Origin: Bryobacterales bacterium
GTDB lineage: Bacteria; Acidobacteriota; Terriglobia; Bryobacterales; Bryobacteraceae
Length of the DNA: 7,037 bases
NCBI GenBank assembly: GCA_016789785.1
Contig: JAEUQE010000340.1
Coordinates: 1 to 7,037, forward strand
Direction: 5' to 3'
Shown: piece after piece, positions 55-7,037 of the stretch
Layout of the letters: every line of letters starts with the position of its first letter
How positions within the stretch are numbered: the first letter of the stretch is position 1
Position numbers and translations under genes: made by a program
The notes under the pieces: generated by a model
Database searches by the model: none
Told to the model about the DNA's origin: nothing
The model's input: the letters and a program-made list of their open reading frames with translations, nothing else

Positions 55-2517
55 ATGAGCCGAGACTGGCGAAGCCAGCTTCAATCCCTGGACAAGTCCG
101 GATTGCCCCGATCGAAGGGAGCCGATCCGTCTTCGCCAGGAATTGAGCAAAAGAGCAAGGCAGAGACTCCCGGGGCGACAGGGGAGAATGAGCCACTGCG
201 CCATTCCGTGCGGATCACGCGCCCGGAGCGTGCAGGCCGTGCGCCGTACAACTTCGTTCCCTTGCCCAAAGAACCGCGATGGTATCACGAGCCACCCATG
301 GACCAGACCGTTGCGGAGGATGGGCAGAAGCGGTTTTCGGGCCACATTGACGTGAAACTGCGATCCCTGACGCGATTCTATGTGCGCGGCATGAGGACGC
401 TGGCCCAGTTCAAGCAGGATGAAGCGCAACGGCGCGAGGAAAAGGCCTCTCCCCGGCCAGGAGCGTTTCAGGTTTCGAACCGGTATGCGATTCCGGGCAG
501 TTCGCTTCGTGGAATGATCCGGACGTTGGTGGAGATTCTGGGGGCGTCGCCCCTGGATCCGATCAACGCGGAGCACCAGCTTTTCTATCGAGCGGTTGCG
601 TCCGACGATCAGCCATATTCGAACGGCAAGCGGAACACCTCGTTCGATCCCAACGCGGTTGCGTACAAGAAGTACCTTTCCAAGGGGAGGGGAACTCACG
701 CGGATCCCGTTTGCCCGATTGCCAAAGCCGGGTATCTCAGCGTGAAGAATGGAAAGTGGACGATCACGCCCGCATCCAAAGACAGGAGCGGAGCGCAGTG
801 GTACCGCGCGGCAAGCGCGTTAAGCCATGCAGCGATAGACCTCTTCCCGGACGGAGATTGGAAGCCTGTTCGTGTCTGGTTTGAAGAACCTAAAGCTCTC
901 ACACTCGACTCTTATCCGCACAGCGGGAAGTACTTCGAGTTCGGAATTGTCAAGAAGCTGAGCATACAGCCAGTCAAAGGGTACAAAGAGGGCTACCTGG
1001 TTCGCTCCGGAGAAATACCTCGCAAGTTTCTCCAGTGGATCATCCGGGGACCTGTAACGGATCCCGCATCAATGGTAGTCATGAGTCCGCAGGACGTGGA
1101 GGCTTACTGTTTCGACCGTGATCATCGCTCCAACGCCAAGATCGCGTATACGGAAAAGTCTCAAAAAGAGCCTTGCTTCTATGTGGAATGGAAGGATTTT
1201 GATGGCGAGAGTCACGTCACCATCGGCCACACGGGACACTTCCGGATTCCCTACGAGAAGCTGATGGGGATGGCCAACCCCTGTGCGCGCCGTACTGACG
1301 ATTCCCGATGGGACCTGGCACAGGCCGTATTCGGGCGGACGACAACGGCGAGCCGGAAAGGCCGGGCCACCCGGGTGTTCTTTGAGGACGCAATCAGCGC
1401 GGTGGCGCCTGACCCGAATCAAGAGGCGATCCGCGCCGTGCTCGGCACACCGAAACCCACTTACTATCCTCACTATCTGGTCCAGGAATCGGAGGAAATT
1501 GAGGCGGCGATTCATTGGGATGGCCAATGGGCCGAAGGGCCGGCCACGGTTCATCCGGAGAAGGCGGTGGTCAGGGGATGGAAGGGTTACCTGCATCGGG
1601 GTGACGATGCACCTTTCCAGATACCAGGGTCCGACTCTCGGAAAAAAGAGCAAGTAAAGGTGGCCACATCGTTCTCCCCTGCGCCGCGCGGCGTGGAACT
1701 CGAATCGAGAATCCGGTTCGAGAATCTGGATGCCGTGGAACTGGGTGCTCTTCTGACCGCACTCGATCTACCCCCGAAGCACGCTCACCGGATTGGGATG
1801 GCGAAACCGCTCGGTTTCGGCAGCATGGCTCTCAGTAGTAAGTTGACCCTGACTACCCATGCCGAGCGCTATGGCACGTTCTTTGGGCGGGCGGACGACG
1901 GGAGTCTCCTGCTCACCACGGGAGGGAAGGAGGCCGACGACAAGGAGACCCGTGGCTTCAAAGCGGCGTTCGCGAAATGGGCGCTCGGGATCGAGGATGC
2001 GAAGGAGGATGCCAAGGAAGATCTTTGGAAGCTCTTGGATCAGGAGGCGGGGGATGCCGCGGAGCGCGCGCGGCTGAAGGAACTGCGTGCCCTTCTGAGG
2101 TGCGGAGATCTCGCATCGACCGATCCGAAGACTTCCCCGGCAGGCACGTCCTGGCAGGACTGGCAGAACGCAACCCGGTACCTGGCGTTCGACAGCTTCG
2201 ATCTGCACGAAGACTCCAAACCCAAGCCAACCCAGCAGCACTACAACGAGTATAAGCACGTTGGATACGATCGAGGTTGGCTTGACGACCCCACAGGGAC
2301 GCCGCAGAGGGGACGGTGGAGGCCGGCGCCGTTCGAGTGGGACAACAAGCCACTGGTGGAGAGCCGGCGTCCGCTTCCGCCAGCGTCACAACTCATCGAC
2401 GGGCTGGATCAGTTGCCGAAGGATCCTCTGCCGGACTTTGGCGCGTACGAGTATGACGCAGCGAAGAGGGCGTATCGCCGGAAGGAGAAGCCCGGCGACG
2501 GAGGACGCCCCCGTTGA
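55..2517 (+). CDS. Large CRISPR-associated RAMP protein, TIGR03986-like (820 aa)
   Basis: This is a probable RNA-binding, Cas7-like subunit of a type III effector complex. RAMP hallmarks are visible. The opening strand FSGHIDVKLRSLTRFYVRG (residues 94-112) is followed by the signature IPGSSLRGMIR (146-156). Later come VVRGWKGYLHRG, the stretch SRIRFENLDAVELGALLTAL (551-570), and a glycine-rich loop GMAKPLGFGS (581-590). Both the SSLRG motif and the KPLGFGS loop are typical of TIGR03986 members. Residues 1-90 are charged and proline-rich and look disordered. About 230 residues follow the glycine-rich loop; I recognise no domain in them, only an Asp/Glu/Lys-rich stretch and a Pro-rich end. The ATG at 55 is preceded by GGGAAGAGG at 8-nt spacing. 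The gene follows an upstream gene by 5 nt and precedes cas6 by 13 nt, so it is operonic. The family call rests on motifs, not a search, and the III subtype cannot be fixed without the upstream genes. Confidence 0.85.
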   Translation: MSRDWRSQLQSLDKSGLPRSKGADPSSPGIEQKSKAETPGATGENEPLRHSVRITRPERAGRAPYNFVPLPKEPRWYHEPPMDQTVAEDGQKRFSGHIDVKLRSLTRFYVRGMRTLAQFKQDEAQRREEKASPRPGAFQVSNRYAIPGSSLRGMIRTLVEILGASPLDPINAEHQLFYRAVASDDQPYSNGKRNTSFDPNAVAYKKYLSKGRGTHADPVCPIAKAGYLSVKNGKWTITPASKDRSGAQWYRAASALSHAAIDLFPDGDWKPVRVWFEEPKALTLDSYPHSGKYFEFGIVKKLSIQPVKGYKEGYLVRSGEIPRKFLQWIIRGPVTDPASMVVMSPQDVEAYCFDRDHRSNAKIAYTEKSQKEPCFYVEWKDFDGESHVTIGHTGHFRIPYEKLMGMANPCARRTDDSRWDLAQAVFGRTTTASRKGRATRVFFEDAISAVAPDPNQEAIRAVLGTPKPTYYPHYLVQESEEIEAAIHWDGQWAEGPATVHPEKAVVRGWKGYLHRGDDAPFQIPGSDSRKKEQVKVATSFSPAPRGVELESRIRFENLDAVELGALLTALDLPPKHAHRIGMAKPLGFGSMALSSKLTLTTHAERYGTFFGRADDGSLLLTTGGKEADDKETRGFKAAFAKWALGIEDAKEDAKEDLWKLLDQEAGDAAERARLKELRALLRCGDLASTDPKTSPAGTSWQDWQNATRYLAFDSFDLHEDSKPKPTQQHYNEYKHVGYDRGWLDDPTGTPQRGRWRPAPFEWDNKPLVESRRPLPPASQLIDGLDQLPKDPLPDFGAYEYDAAKRAYRRKEKPGDGGRPR

Positions 2518-2530
2518 GGCGAAACCGTGC

Positions 2531-3400
2531 ATGTTCTTCCGAAGCGCAGTGGGGCGGTTGGAAGCGGACGGCGTGGTGTCGATTCCACTCACGCATGGCA
2601 AAGCGATGCAGGGTGAGTTGTTCCGGCAACTGCGTCTTCTGGATTCGGCTGGGGCATCCCTGCTCCACGGTGGCGGCCCGGACCGCCGCCACTACACCGT
2701 CTCCCAGATTTCGGGCCCCTTTGACGTGGAGCGCGGCCTGGCGTGGGCGAGACCGGGCGCTCCGTATTGGTTCCGGCTGACAGGGATTGGGGCGGTTGCG
2801 GTGGCTGCTCTGTCGGCTGTCACGGAAAAAGTGCGCGACTGGAACTGTGCCGGAGCGCAGTTCCGGATCGCCGGCTGGGAGACACAGGCGGGTTCGGGTG
2901 AATCGTGGGGCGGATCCCTGGACATGGGGCAGTTGCTGGAGGCTGCGGTGCACGACCACGCCGCCGAGCCAAACCGGATTGTTCTGGGGTTCCTGTCGCC
3001 AGCCACGATGAAGCGGAATTCCGAATCCCGATGGGCACGGTGCAATCCGATCCCAGTTCCCGAGCAGGTCTTCGCAAGCATTTCCGAGCGAGCTTCACTG
3101 GTCAGCCCGGACTTCCCACGCCCTCCCGATTGGCGAGCCCTGCTGACGGAGTGCCTGGCCGTTGGGCAGTATGAGTTGCAGACACGCTCGCTCGATTTTG
3201 GCAGAGATGGAGGCAAGCGAGTGGGTTTTGTGGGAACTTGCGAGTTCCTGATCGATCCCGCGCTGGGGCCTTCGGAGCGTTTGTGGCTTCACTTATTGGG
3301 TGGTTTGGCGTTTTACACGGGCGTGGGTGCGGAGACTTCGTGGGGGATGGGGCAAGCGCGGCGGGAACCCGCTGAGCGTTTCCGCTACCGGGGCTGGTAG
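2531..3400 (+). CDS. cas6: CRISPR pre-crRNA endoribonuclease Cas6 (289 aa)
   Basis: Cas6 cuts the repeat RNA of CRISPR transcripts to release crRNAs. The N-terminal half has the usual Cas6 order: a helix with LFRQLRLLD (30-38), then LLHGGG with a candidate catalytic His46, then YTVSQISGPF (55-64) and PYWFRLTGIG. The C-terminal half has GFVGTCEFLI followed by the diagnostic glycine-rich segment TGVGAETSWGMGQARR (263-278), which matches the C-terminal Cas6 domain (PF10040 type). Length is normal for the family. The open frame extends upstream to an ATG at 2261, but that start would overlap the RAMP gene by about 250 bases with low-complexity Arg/Gly-rich sequence. The ATG at 2531, 13 nt after the previous stop, is the only sensible start, with GAGG at 2516-2519 as a rather distant ribosome site, so coupling to the preceding gene is likely. 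His46 as the catalytic residue is inferred from its position. Confidence 0.88.
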   Translation: MFFRSAVGRLEADGVVSIPLTHGKAMQGELFRQLRLLDSAGASLLHGGGPDRRHYTVSQISGPFDVERGLAWARPGAPYWFRLTGIGAVAVAALSAVTEKVRDWNCAGAQFRIAGWETQAGSGESWGGSLDMGQLLEAAVHDHAAEPNRIVLGFLSPATMKRNSESRWARCNPIPVPEQVFASISERASLVSPDFPRPPDWRALLTECLAVGQYELQTRSLDFGRDGGKRVGFVGTCEFLIDPALGPSERLWLHLLGGLAFYTGVGAETSWGMGQARREPAERFRYRGW

Positions 3401-3569: not shown

Positions 3570-3881
3570 GTTTCCGTGCTGTCATTCCAGCGGTCTACTG
3601 AAACTGCCAAGCAACACTGCTCGACATGTGCTAGTTTCCGTGCTGTCATTCCAGCGGTCTACTGAAACAGAAGCACTCAAAGAAACCAAAATCAGCACTC
3701 TGAGTTTCCGTGCTGTCATTCCAGCGGTCTACTGAAACTGTTTGTTGAGAGCAGCAATCAGGCATCACTATTTGTTTCCGTGCTGTCATTCCAGCGGTCT
3801 ACTGAAACTGTTCATTCATGGTGAGTATACCGCAGATAAGATCAATGTTTCCGTGCTGTCATTCCAGCGGTCTACTGAAAC
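3570..3881 (-). CRISPR. CRISPR array 1: five identical 35-nt repeats, four spacers
   Basis: Repeats lie at 3570-3604, 3634-3668, 3704-3738, 3774-3808 and 3847-3881 and are identical. Spacers are 29, 35, 35 and 38 nt. Read on the minus strand, the repeat starts GTTTCAGTAGACCGCTGGAA and ends TGACAGCACGGAAAC. It has a terminal GTTTC/GAAAC palindrome and an internal GCTG/CAGC stem that can extend with two further G-C pairs across a 2-nt bulge. The minus strand is chosen because the right flank matches the leader of array 2 in three blocks at identical offsets. A crRNA tag cut 8 nt from the repeat end would be ACGGAAAC. The opposite orientation would give ACTGAAAC, also a plausible type III tag, so orientation is well supported but not proven. 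Perfect repeats suggest recent or maintained function. Spacer targets are unknown. Confidence 0.97.
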
Positions 3882-3951
3882 CCTACCCGAACAAGTGCCC
3901 TGTTGTCAACAGTTTTCCGACCCCCGCTCCCTGCAAAACTGCACAGTACAC
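3882..3951 (-). promoter_or_regulatory. Leader of CRISPR array 1
   Basis: This 70-nt flank shares three blocks with the flank of array 2 at exactly the same distances from the last repeat. They are an 18-nt block touching the repeat (3882-3899), TGTCAA (3904-3909, read TTGACA on the minus strand) and a 17-nt block AAAACTGCACAGTACAC (3935-3951). The 4 and 25 nt between the blocks do not match. The outer block holds an ACTG/CAGT dyad. This is the pattern expected of a leader whose acquisition-complex and promoter contacts are conserved. TTGACA is a perfect -35 hexamer facing the array, but no good -10 follows it, so the promoter role is uncertain. The VWA lipoprotein gene ends only 12 nt upstream. 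Confidence 0.8.
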
Positions 3952-3963
3952 CGGTGACGCCTC

Positions 3964-4740
3964 CTACCACTGCAAGGCAAAATCGAGAACCGCCGCGGCG
4001 TACCGCTCCTTGGGGAAGACGGCGCCCGCAGCCTGGAAGTACTGAAGCCAGAACTTCTCAATCTGGCGCAGCTTCTCCTCGGGGATCGCCCCGGCGGCCG
4101 ACCCGGCCTTCCAAACCCGCACCCCCTGGAGAGCTGGAAGCCGGCCCGCCACCCGTTCGGCCTCTATAATTGCCGCGATCCGCCGATCGTCGAGGCGGTC
4201 CGTCTTGAAATCGTACAGGTCTGACTCCTCCACCATATCGCTAAAGATGACCAGGGCCTTGCGGTGCGCCTCGCGCCATTCCTCTCCATTGAAAACCTTG
4301 GCGGCAACGGAGAGGGCGTTGAGAATCTCGGTCTTCGTGGCGGGCTTGGTGGCCAGAAGCTGTCCGAACTGCTCGTTGGCCTGAGCGAGCGCGGGCCGAA
4401 GGACTTTCTTCTCGTGATAATCCGAATCGGAAGTCACCGCGTTGAAGGCCGGGACGGCGACCCGCAGCGGCACCGTAGCCCGGTTCAGGACATCGGCGCC
4501 AATGACATCACCGCGCAGTTGCCCGCCACGCTTACTCCAAACGTCCAGGATGGTCGCAAAGTCCTTCCTGGCTTGCTCCTGGACGCGGGTTGACGCAGTG
4601 CTGATGGAGACGTCCACGAGCAGGAAAACGGCGGAGGGCGGCTTGCCCGAAACCATTTCGCCCATCTCCCGGGCGACCCGGCTGCCGCAACTGCAAAGCA
4701 GCACAACTCCCAGGAGCGGAAGGACGGTTGTAGCCCTCAT
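3964..4740 (-). CDS. VWA-domain lipoprotein (258 aa)
   Basis: The first 18 residues form a lipoprotein signal peptide: Arg2, a hydrophobic stretch, then LLCSC with Cys18 as the likely lipidated residue, so the mature protein should be membrane-anchored outside the cytoplasm. The body looks like a von Willebrand factor A fold. The strand AVFLLVDVSIST carries a complete metal-site motif D43-x-S45-x-S47. T137 in TKTEILNAL fits the second metal-site loop, and D168 in VIFSDM the third. Such domains usually bind a protein ligand through a divalent metal. The ATG at 4740 overlaps the stop of the preceding membrane-protein gene (ATGA), with GAGG 8 nt upstream, so the two are translationally coupled. 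The stop lies 12 nt before the array 1 leader. I recognise no specific family and know of no established CRISPR role. Confidence 0.8.
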   Translation of the reverse strand: MRATTVLPLLGVVLLCSCGSRVAREMGEMVSGKPPSAVFLLVDVSISTASTRVQEQARKDFATILDVWSKRGGQLRGDVIGADVLNRATVPLRVAVPAFNAVTSDSDYHEKKVLRPALAQANEQFGQLLATKPATKTEILNALSVAAKVFNGEEWREAHRKALVIFSDMVEESDLYDFKTDRLDDRRIAAIIEAERVAGRLPALQGVRVWKAGSAAGAIPEEKLRQIEKFWLQYFQAAGAVFPKERYAAAVLDFALQW

Positions 4741-6065
4741 GTGCGATCCCTCTCCCTGGCGGCTGCCGCCAGCACGAGGTCCTCCGAGGGTTGCGCGACG
4801 GGTGTTCGGGCCGGGACTGTGGAGCCGGCGGGCGCAGCGGAGGATGCGGCGCTGGTGGGAACCGCTTCGGCATGGAGACCCGGAGAAGCAGGAGGGCGGG
4901 TATTTGCCGTGTCCGGATCGGGAGACGGATCATCCGGCAGTTCGGCTGGTCCAACGGCAGCCCCCTGGGCCGCCGAGTCCGCCGCGGCCTGACCGCCGAT
5001 CCGTTGTGTGAAGTGCTTCGGAAGAGAGACGAGGGGGCTGGTATTGATGGCGTCGAAGTATTTGGGCCGAAGGATCCCGCGCTCCTCTCCGGCATCCTGG
5101 CGAGCCCGGCGATTGTACATATGGTAGAGCTTGAACAACTCCAAGTGTTGATCGGTGACCTGGTGGGCTTCCGTCTCGCGGGTGACGCGGAGGGTTTCGC
5201 GGGCACGCTCGGCGAGTGCCAGTTCCTTGTCGAGCCGTTCCTTCCGGCTTCGCGCCGCGCGAAGGACCCGGCCGGCGGATTCGACATGCTCAATCCCGGT
5301 CATGTGACGGTGCCGGGACAGGAATGCCGCGCAGCCGAAGATCATCAGATTGAAGATGGCGAATGCCCGCATCAGAAGCGCCGACGAGGGGAGCTTCAAT
5401 TCGGGGTTGTGGCTAAGATAGGCGGTCCGCAGTTCCGCGACGGAAAGAATGGCCAGGAAGGCCAGCGATACGAGCAGGATGACATCCAACAAGGCGCCGC
5501 GGTCTTTCGACGGACCTTTGCGCCAGGCGACGCCGAGGTAGTGCGCCAACACGAGCAAGGAGCCACCGATGGCGAGCGCGGTTGCGCCGGTGAGCCAGCC
5601 GGCGTTTTCCCCGAACAGCTTGAAGGCCGAGAAGTTCATGGGAAATTCCAGGACCAGGAAGAACGCCGTGATCAGCCAATAGGACAAAACGCGGTTCTTC
5701 ACCGTATCGGGTGGGATTTCGGGGTTTTTCTCCTTGAAGTACTTACAGGCCATTTCGTATTCGCCCTGGGCGCGCGCCAGTGACTGGTCCGCCGCCTCGG
5801 ACTCCTTTTTGAGCTGCACGATGCGGAGCTGGTGTGCGGCGTCTTCTTTCTGGAACTGTCCGAGGATTCCCCGGACGATCCCATCGAAGTGTTCCTTCAT
5901 CCCGGCGACGAACCAGGGACATGTTTCGTCATCCCAGCCAGGTACGGGAGAAGACAACTCCGCGTCCTGCCGGGCGTGATAACGCACCTCACTCAAGGTG
6001 TAGGTTGTGATGTCGCCCCACCAACCGAATTTCCAGCGCTCCCACCAAGACTTCACCCAAGCCAT
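4737..6065 (-). CDS. Four-helix membrane protein with coiled coils (442 aa), function unknown
   Basis: The first about 125 residues are soluble, Trp-rich at the start (WWERWKFGWW, 7-16), with a probable coiled coil at about 70-110. Four hydrophobic segments follow at about 128-148, 157-180, 190-211 and 230-250. A second charged helical region (about 255-300, rich in Glu, Arg and Leu) and a Pro/Ala/Ser-rich, probably disordered tail (about 355-430) complete it. No enzyme motif is apparent. The start is set at the ATG at 6065 because GGAGG lies 5 nt upstream of it; the open frame extends 10 codons further to a TTG at 6095 that lacks this support. The gene overlaps the VWA lipoprotein gene by 4 nt, so the products probably work together, perhaps as a cytoplasm-to-periplasm assembly. 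The pair lies between two CRISPR arrays on the same strand. Function is unknown. Confidence 0.8.
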   Translation of the reverse strand: MAWVKSWWERWKFGWWGDITTYTLSEVRYHARQDAELSSPVPGWDDETCPWFVAGMKEHFDGIVRGILGQFQKEDAAHQLRIVQLKKESEAADQSLARAQGEYEMACKYFKEKNPEIPPDTVKNRVLSYWLITAFFLVLEFPMNFSAFKLFGENAGWLTGATALAIGGSLLVLAHYLGVAWRKGPSKDRGALLDVILLVSLAFLAILSVAELRTAYLSHNPELKLPSSALLMRAFAIFNLMIFGCAAFLSRHRHMTGIEHVESAGRVLRAARSRKERLDKELALAERARETLRVTRETEAHQVTDQHLELFKLYHMYNRRARQDAGEERGILRPKYFDAINTSPLVSLPKHFTQRIGGQAAADSAAQGAAVGPAELPDDPSPDPDTANTRPPASPGLHAEAVPTSAASSAAPAGSTVPARTPVAQPSEDLVLAAAARERDRT

Positions 6066-6070
6066 GCGGA

Positions 6071-6075
6071 CCTCC
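6071..6075 (-). promoter_or_regulatory. Ribosome binding site fixing the membrane-protein start
   Basis: On the minus strand GGAGG is followed by five bases (TCCGC) and then ATG at 6065-6063. This is the best Shine-Dalgarno match near the start and selects the ATG over the upstream TTG at 6095. Confidence 0.7.
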
Positions 6076-6134
6076 GCTGCGGAAGAGATTGCCAACCGGG
6101 CCGCGAGGCTGGAAACCTTGTGGCCCGCACTTCG

Positions 6135-6377: not shown

Positions 6378-6402
6378 GTTCCGGTCATTCCAGGTCTACC
6401 TG
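6378..6402 (-). repeat. Decayed CRISPR repeat beyond the leader-distal end of array 2
   Basis: On the plus strand the segment reads GTTCCG, then GTCATTCCAG, then GTCTAC. Those are three parts of the array 1 repeat in the right order, with small deletions between them (T, TGCT and CG missing). It ends 36 nt before the next recognisable repeat at 6439, which is within the spacer size of these arrays. This fits an eroded terminal repeat plus its spacer. It resembles the array 1 repeat form rather than the newer form of array 2. Confidence 0.6.
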
Positions 6403-6438
6403 TTGCGTAAGCTTAAGGGGTCTAATACTGACCGTTTG

Positions 6439-6797
6439 GGTTCCGTGCTGTCGTTCCAGCGGTCTACTCAAACGCGATTCAGGATACGGGTTCCAGCGGT
6501 CTACTCAAACAACAAAAACACAGGTCTCTGCAAAGTCAAAAATACGGGATTCAGGATACGGGTTCCAGCGGTCTACTCAAACCATGCCCGTACGGTTCAG
6601 GGCCAGGCGGAAGAAATCAAGATTCAGGATACGGGTTCCAGCGGTCTACTCAAACGCGCCAGCGCACGCGGCTGGCATAGTCGTCAGCACGGAGATTCAG
6701 GATACGGGTTCCAGCGGTCTACTCAAACAACAGACTCTCTTTTATTCCCAAACCAGGGTCATGATTCAGGATACGGGTTCCAGCGGTCTACTCAAAC
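6439..6797 (-). CRISPR. CRISPR array 2: one ancestral-type and five chimeric 35-nt repeats
   Basis: The leftmost repeat (6439-6473) differs from the array 1 repeat at only three positions. Five further repeats (6476-6510, 6548-6582, 6621-6655, 6694-6728, 6763-6797) are identical to one another. On the minus strand they share the first 21 nt with the leftmost repeat, but their last 14 nt read CCGTATCCTGAATC instead of GACAGCACGGAACC. The gap between the leftmost repeat and the first chimeric one is only GC (2 nt). The other spacers are 37, 38, 38 and 34 nt. The chimeric form loses the GTTTC/GAAAC ends and the CAGC arm of the internal stem. Orientation follows the leader and cas2-like gene on the right. 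A decayed repeat lies just beyond the left end. Confidence 0.95.
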
Positions 6798-6867
6798 CCT
6801 ACCCGAACAAGTGCCATCCTGTCAATCCCTTAGCGGGGAGGGGTGGCGAGAAAACTGCACAGTACAC
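6798..6867 (-). promoter_or_regulatory. Leader of CRISPR array 2
   Basis: The flank begins with the same 18-nt block as array 1 (6798-6815), then TGTCAA (6820-6825) and AAAACTGCACAGTACAC (6851-6867), at offsets of 22 and 53 nt from the repeat edge, exactly as in array 1. The 25 nt between the second and third blocks are unrelated between the two leaders. The cas2-like gene ends 15 nt upstream on the same strand, the classic position for a leader. TTGACA on the minus strand could be a -35 element, but no clear -10 follows. Confidence 0.85.
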
Positions 6868-6882
6868 ATCCGGAGGCCCAGA

Positions 6883-7037
6883 TCATGCGAAATACGCGAG
6901 GGGTTCCGTGTACAGGGGTGGGCCGCCCTGCTCCTTCGCCTTGGCAAGGCACCTTGGGCAGACCGGATAGTAGCGCACCCGGTCGCCCGGCAGTTCCAGA
7001 AGGCTGGTCACGCGGCGACGCAACTCCTCCAACTCCG
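6883..7037 (-). CDS. cas2: Cas2-like adaptation protein, C-terminal 50 residues (5' end outside the window)
   Basis: Cas2 is the dimeric partner of Cas1 in the spacer-integration complex. The visible part reads ELEELRRRVTSLLELPGDRV, then RYYPVCPRC, then a GGPP turn and LYTEPLAYFA before TGA. A basic helix followed by a short turn, a DRVRYYP strand, a Cys-rich turn and a final short strand is the usual C-terminal layout of Cas2. Its position, reading directly into a CRISPR leader, supports the call. Cas1 would be expected upstream, to the right. Only about half of a typical Cas2 is visible, so the N-terminal catalytic-like Asp and any fusion cannot be judged. Confidence 0.72.
   Translation of the reverse strand, partial: ELEELRRRVTSLLELPGDRVRYYPVCPRCLAKAKEQGGPPLYTEPLAYFA

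Follow-up and report, generated by a model that had tools for sequence, protein, structure and literature searches.

The stretch of DNA analysed here (the window, 7,037 nucleotides in length) carries two CRISPR arrays, both read on the minus strand, together with a type III effector gene, a gene for the repeat-processing enzyme Cas6 and two genes that lie between the arrays. The features are as follows.

55..2517, plus strand: type III RAMP (Cas7) of the TIGR03986 family, III-D-like, 820 aa (NCBIfam and PADLOC)
2531..3400, plus strand: Cas6 endoribonuclease, 289 aa, adjoining array 1 (Pfam PF10040)
3570..3881, minus strand: array 1, five identical 35-nt repeats GTTTCAGTAGACCGCTGGAATGACAGCACGGAAAC and four spacers of 29-38 nt
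3882..3951, minus strand: array 1 leader (right flank), aligned with the array 2 leader
3964-4740, minus strand: 258-aa protein, lipoprotein-like as judged by eye, between the arrays, no confident family
4737-6095, minus strand: 452-aa protein, no family match, between the arrays and overlapping the gene at 3964-4740
6439-6797, minus strand: array 2, six repeats (five of a form called C, and one, R0, at the leader-distal end)
6798..6867, minus strand: array 2 leader (right flank), 25/28 identical to the array 1 leader beside the repeat

The RAMP protein scores 293.3 bits against the TIGR03986 family in NCBIfam (cut-off 161.35), and its best PADLOC model is Cas7_IIId (E 1.3e-89), with a III-A/III-D Csm3 model scoring almost as well (E 7.3e-88). 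Cas6 was recognised by PF10040 at 44.6 bits (cut-off 25) in a Pfam scan of 2525-3400, and lies below the cut-off in NCBIfam (22.1 vs 58.65); 17 related proteins were listed for it, the window's own among them. The window therefore holds the pair of features by which type III-D was judged, a Cas7_IIId-type RAMP and a Cas6 adjoining an array, and we read it, from gene families, as the probable edge of a type III-D system. Its first base already falls inside an open frame, with the start of the RAMP gene close by. Among the four window genes scanned with Pfam, NCBIfam and PADLOC, none was assigned by family to cas10, cas1 or cas2, and none of the four to a reverse transcriptase. The 258-aa protein gave a weak von Willebrand A match (E 0.0071, below the cut-off). 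The 452-aa protein has hydrophobic stretches when judged by eye; its homologue P0008 and the RAMP homologue P0032 are each listed with 12481 bases as the length of their longest contig, so this gene may travel with type III-D systems.

Leaders, repeats and stems of the two arrays

The orientation of the arrays was established from their flanks. To the right of the two arrays the nearest 18 bases are identical (18/18), with 25/28 identical over 28 bases and 29/40 over 40; the left flanks agree at 7/28 and 8/40. A second block of 17 bases, GTGTACTGTGCAGTTTT, is common to both right flanks, as is TTGACA. Because the right flanks match and the left flanks do not, the leader lies on the right of both arrays. 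This is the side on which the original prediction had placed it for array 2, and not the left, the placement that it had named as fatal to its own account (25/28 vs 7/28).

Array 2 has the fixed repeats, the unique spacers of similar size and the leader of a CRISPR array, the exceptions being a 2-nt gap at 6474-6475 and the divergent repeat R0. Its parts are listed below, all on the minus strand; C1 is the oldest of the C repeats.

6439..6473: R0, leader-distal repeat of apparently ancestral type, GTTTGAGTAGACCGCTGGAACGACAGCACGGAACC, 35 nt
6474..6475: GC remnant between C1 and R0
6476..6489: in C1, the 14 nt that we regard as captured, CCGTATCCTGAATC (minus strand), which with 6474-6475 form a 16-nt insert
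6490..6510: in C1, the retained 21-nt leader-side part, 21/21 identical to R0
6763-6797, 6694-6728, 6621-6655, 6548-6582 and 6476-6510 (leader first): the C repeat, GTTTGAGTAGACCGCTGGAACCCGTATCCTGAATC, 35 nt
6511..6797: the four later spacers (6511-6547, 6583-6620, 6656-6693, 6729-6762) and four further C repeats

R0 and the array 1 repeat disagree at 3/35 positions (5, 21 and 34), the three mismatches that had been noted originally. The C repeat is identical to R0 at positions 1-21 and differs from it at 9 of the 14 positions 22-35, with the change concentrated at positions 22-28 and 30. All five C copies are identical, with no intermediate form among them, and on either side of C the flanking bases change from unit to unit, which puts its boundary at exactly 35 nt. 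The repeat thus kept its length of 35 nt in 5/5 copies despite the change at positions 22-35, as a ruler would leave it. The spacers between C copies measure 34, 38, 38 and 37 nt, and the gap between C1 and R0 consists of GC alone. The original prediction had reported the retained 21 nt, the constant total of 35 nt and the gap shrunk to GC (6474-6475) where the other array 2 spacers have 34-38 nt, and all of these hold. Its description of the remaining 14 nt as unrelated is slightly too strong, since five of the last seven match R0 (29, 31, 32, 33 and 35).

The distal form common to R0 and array 1 appears to be the ancestral state, and that of C the derived one. Moreover, C carries G5 and C21, states that are found in array 2 and have no counterpart in array 1. 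These states support its descent in place from an R0-type repeat and speak against the insertion of an unrelated family.

On the leader-first strand, a 4-bp stem, GCUG/CAGC, is open to the array 1 repeat and to R0, and exactly 8 nt (ACGGAAAC or ACGGAACC) remain beyond it; Cas6 cleavage usually yields a tag of 8 nt behind a stem. RNA folding of C gave no GCUG/CAGC stem ahead of the 8-nt tag. The minus-strand folds are weak (z -1.77 for array 1, -0.38 for R0 and -0.46 for C), and the plus strand folds about equally well (array 1 -7.0 and R0 -6.4 kcal/mol, vs -8.3 and -6.3 on the minus strand); the orientation therefore rests on the leaders and not on folding. The 8-nt spacing also speaks for this strand, and the loss of the stem in C is suggestive only. 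Because the stem ahead of the tag is gone, the resident Cas6 likely cuts C inefficiently, if it cuts it at all. Some Cas6 enzymes do bind repeats that lack structure. If the resident enzyme needs the stem, which the weak fold energies leave uncertain, array 2 would have gained spacers without a normal yield of crRNA.

Origin of the changed repeat

How repeats can change is not obvious when two partners, the integrase and the RNA-processing enzyme, have to recognise them throughout. The stretch from C1 to R0 reads R0[1-21] + CCGTATCCTGAATCGC + R0, and its first 35 nt are exactly C. The account that we favour starts from an older array of R0-type repeats, at whose leader end a lesion would have left repeat positions 1-21 (or 1-22) and 15-16 nt of non-repeat DNA immediately before R0. 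The exact bookkeeping suggests that the spacer integrase then made one join where the leader meets the repeat and the other at a measured distance of 35 nt. Every acquisition would have copied 21 nt of old repeat and 14 nt of non-repeat DNA, turning them into a new fixed repeat, with GC left behind, and four acquisitions would have produced four new spacers and five identical chimeric repeats. Because a 35-nt copy reproduces both C and GC, one history would explain a change running from mid-repeat to the end, the kept length of 35 nt and the spacer missing at just that place. We lean towards such a lesion followed by 35-nt length-measured copying as the best single account of C and GC, on the strength of a single case on a single contig. 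A change that runs from mid-repeat to the end and breaks the GCUG/CAGC stem is as expected of an accident.

Two features sit less easily with capture. The captured nucleotides end in GAATC and so match R0 at positions 31, 32, 33 and 35 (G31 A32 A33 C35, a GAAnC end), an agreement with a chance of 0.0022 in random DNA of spacer composition. At least five matches in the last seven positions occurred in 0.76% of random draws of that composition, and 4 of the 360 14-mers taken from the eight full spacers on both strands reach at least five of the last seven. Over all 14 positions the likeness is unremarkable, with at least five matches in 18% of draws. The end match may reflect luck, a filter that let lineages arise solely from junctions whose end was usable, or a block substitution in which the end was preserved; capture thus needs luck, such a filter or a different history. 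With the captured 14 nt the repeat regained a GAAnC end resembling the old one. The array is therefore no proof that the distal repeat is dispensable, and the earlier claim that the leader and about 20 nt of repeat were enough for acquisition is not supported in the form given; distal repeat sequence may matter for acquisition. The second feature is the length of the non-repeat segment, 15-16 nt, which calls for truncation or a short insert because full spacers here have 29-38 nt.

The nature of the lesion was therefore considered in its own right. A single deletion, proposed originally, fits the junction, and two other events explain it as well. R0 contains a perfect direct repeat, GGAAC, at positions 17-21 and 30-34, where the array 1 repeat has GGAA alone. 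A slip between the two copies would give a 22-nt prefix, GTTTGAGTAGACCGCTGGAACC, identical to the start of C, and the spacer that follows would then contribute just 15 nt. When R0 was shuffled, the 5-mer that ends at position 21 occurred a second time in 2.5% of cases and some 5-mer was repeated in 27%, so we treat the slip as suggestive only. Alternatively, a second cut at the inner GGAAC in place of the end GGAACC would give R0[1-21]-insert-R0 with a 16-nt insert and no deletion; the compatible inner cut positions are 15-21, with inserts of 22 down to 16 nt. A short insert is possible, because a type III Cas6-RT-Cas1-Cas2 complex is reported to be most active with substrates of 15 to 55 nt (PMC8102632). 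In our judgement, which is not computed, a plain deletion and a mis-sited or aborted Cas1-Cas2 integration of a short piece deserve equal weight, each just short of an even chance, with the GGAAC slip plus spacer loss trailing both. We discarded by reasoning the idea that C1 and GC (37 nt together) were a spacer captured from a normal array, in which position 21 is not followed by CCGTAT.

Histories other than capture were weighed against the same features. Positions 22-30 of the leader-end repeat could have been rewritten in place, by template switching, gene conversion or several substitutions, with GAAnC kept, spread of the new form by normal acquisition and separate loss of the R0-side spacer down to GC. 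Such a rewriting would suit the concentration of change at positions 22-28 and 30 and the retention of G31 A32 A33 C35, and array 1 and R0 already disagree at position 34. It requires, however, two unrelated events at one place; the window offers no donor for the 14 nt (the best match outside the array is 10/14), the GCUG/CAGC stem was broken, and the five C copies include no intermediates. We consider it unlikely. A donor array elsewhere is the premise of a second alternative, in which C was already established as the repeat of a different array, within this genome or its population, and became joined to the R0 end within the shared 21 nt. The same genome may indeed hold other arrays. Against this, C has the array-2-only G5 and C21 in common with R0, and the origin of C itself would be left unexplained. 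Moreover, the 21-letter word of the shared repeat part had 0 exact matches in genome_contigs and viral_contigs, a C-specific word had 0 in viral_contigs, and array 2 with its flanks matched nothing in plasmids (6400-7037) or phages (6400-6860). Import of this kind appears improbable. An artefact, finally, would have the contig joining two arrays through the shared 21 nt, and the window is probably a single metagenome contig, its own proteins being listed on one contig of 7037 bases. A misjoin within those 21 nt can replace the sequence after R0 position 21 but cannot create a GC stub between C1 and the start of the next repeat, and both arrays on the contig have matching leaders; we give this explanation very little credence.

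Returning to length-measured capture, the earlier interpretation survives in its leader orientation, in the descent of C in place and in its arithmetic, which is exact: the 35 nt copied include 14 non-repeat bases, and 2 stay behind. A single deletion is one of several candidate causes, and the sufficiency of the leader and about 20 nt of repeat is not supported in the form given. A longer chain is conceivable, and to our minds doubtful: some accident beside the leader, possibly a Cas1-Cas2 integration that was aborted, copied by the ruler into a new repeat family in one step, the array still acquiring spacers and the new repeats lacking the Cas6 stem and the original tag, so that the writing of memory became uncoupled from its use. 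If capture is true, repeat families can jump rather than drift, with a ruler turning whatever DNA lies at the right distance into repeat. The half-repeat and its 16 nt are a concrete target for asking how much repeat an integrase needs, and whether Cas6 follows.

Comparison with known integrases and arrays

Length-measured copying itself is already known from laboratory work (in the sections of PMC6895254 and PMC8102632 used here), and our finding is a variation on known integrase behaviour, not a new kind of system. In the type II-A system of S. thermophilus, distance helps to set the second cut (PMC6895254, with type I-E and I-B studies cited there), and a ruler element occupies positions 28-32 of the 36 in the repeat. 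The new repeat can take in a base of the preceding spacer so that the position is kept, and a misplaced second-site reaction, eight bases into the spacer, partly duplicated that spacer (PMC6895254). On our reading, array 2 would resemble these cases in the fixed distance to the second cut and in the entry of neighbouring bases into the repeat. The changes described in that part of the II-A work were insertions or deletions of 1-3 bases, whereas in array 2 the change covers 14/35 bases, including the 28-32 region, arose naturally and was propagated through four acquisitions. Since the place of the II-A ruler element falls in the replaced part, a ruler anchor here, if the analogy holds, would have to sit in the first 21 nt.

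A type III Cas6-RT-Cas1-Cas2 complex gave full-site insertions with duplication of the adjacent 35 bp in 14/25 cases, 12/14 of them at the leader-repeat junction; the other 11/25 (by subtraction) were partial or whole insertions followed by deletion (PMC8102632). The likeness to our account of array 2 lies in the 35-bp duplication of adjacent DNA and in the presence of partial insertions and deletion among the products. Those reactions were carried out in vitro with another system, whereas family assignment of the four window genes gave neither Cas1 nor a reverse transcriptase. The second step in type V-A depends on a ruler and also on the sequence of the repeat end (PMC13034035, in the part consulted), and by analogy this need for an end sequence would count against a direct transfer of the ruler idea.

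Two further comparisons concern the repeat itself. In E. coli type I-E, the incoming spacer supplies the final base of the repeat (PMC10011333), so that there too a repeat position derives from spacer DNA. In that system, as the cited part describes it, a single base enters from the incoming spacer as a regular outcome, whereas in array 2 the 14 bases would have come from DNA already beside the repeat and been captured once. Arrays with divergent terminal repeats (PMC8047081) share with array 2 a leader-distal repeat that differs from the rest at its 3' end. In the portion of that study used here, the terminal repeat is usually the odd one, whereas the terminal R0 of array 2 agrees with array 1. 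A search of titles and abstract starts in the open-licence literature returned no report of a natural array with such a repeat change.

Relatives and spacers

The word and match searches of genome_contigs, viral_contigs, plasmids and phages yielded no relative of array 2, and none with an undeleted or intermediate form of it. A scan of genome_contigs was guided by Cas6, with an alignment built from 13 of the 17 Cas6 proteins. The pattern matched 43 stretches, which led to three distant loci with 31, 29 and 23% identity. When direct repeats within set limits were sought at these loci, an array-like family appeared at one alone (L003). The L003 repeat can form a stem 7 nt ahead of its end, TGGAAAC, on the strand presumed to be leader-first, a presumption based on an odd end repeat at the opposite end. 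This stem was set aside as support, since the fold does not beat shuffled sequences (z 0.07), the centroid is unpaired and the other strand folds more stably.

Protospacers were sought in viral_contigs with 20-mers from 6 of the 8 full spacers. For three of the six (6583-6620, 6656-6693 and 3739-3773), an unbroken run of 21-22 bases also occurs in viral contigs L004, L005 and L006/L007. The matches cover just 22/38, 25/38 and 25/35 bases of these spacers, and therefore none amounts to a full protospacer.

Three spacers have features of their own. Spacer 6511-6547, the oldest acquired after the change, starts with CCGTAT on the minus strand, as do the captured 14 nt; such a start in any of the four spacers has a chance of 0.00078, a figure for a feature chosen after the fact, and the agreement is probably chance. 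The first nine bases of spacer 6656-6693 on the minus strand, TCCGTGCTG, also occur in the distal part of R0 when that is reverse-complemented. A match of at least nine bases arose in 72/1500 shuffled spacers, and we set this one aside as a signal. In array 1, the leader-distal spacer (3605-3633) has 29 nt, compared with 35-38 for the other three.
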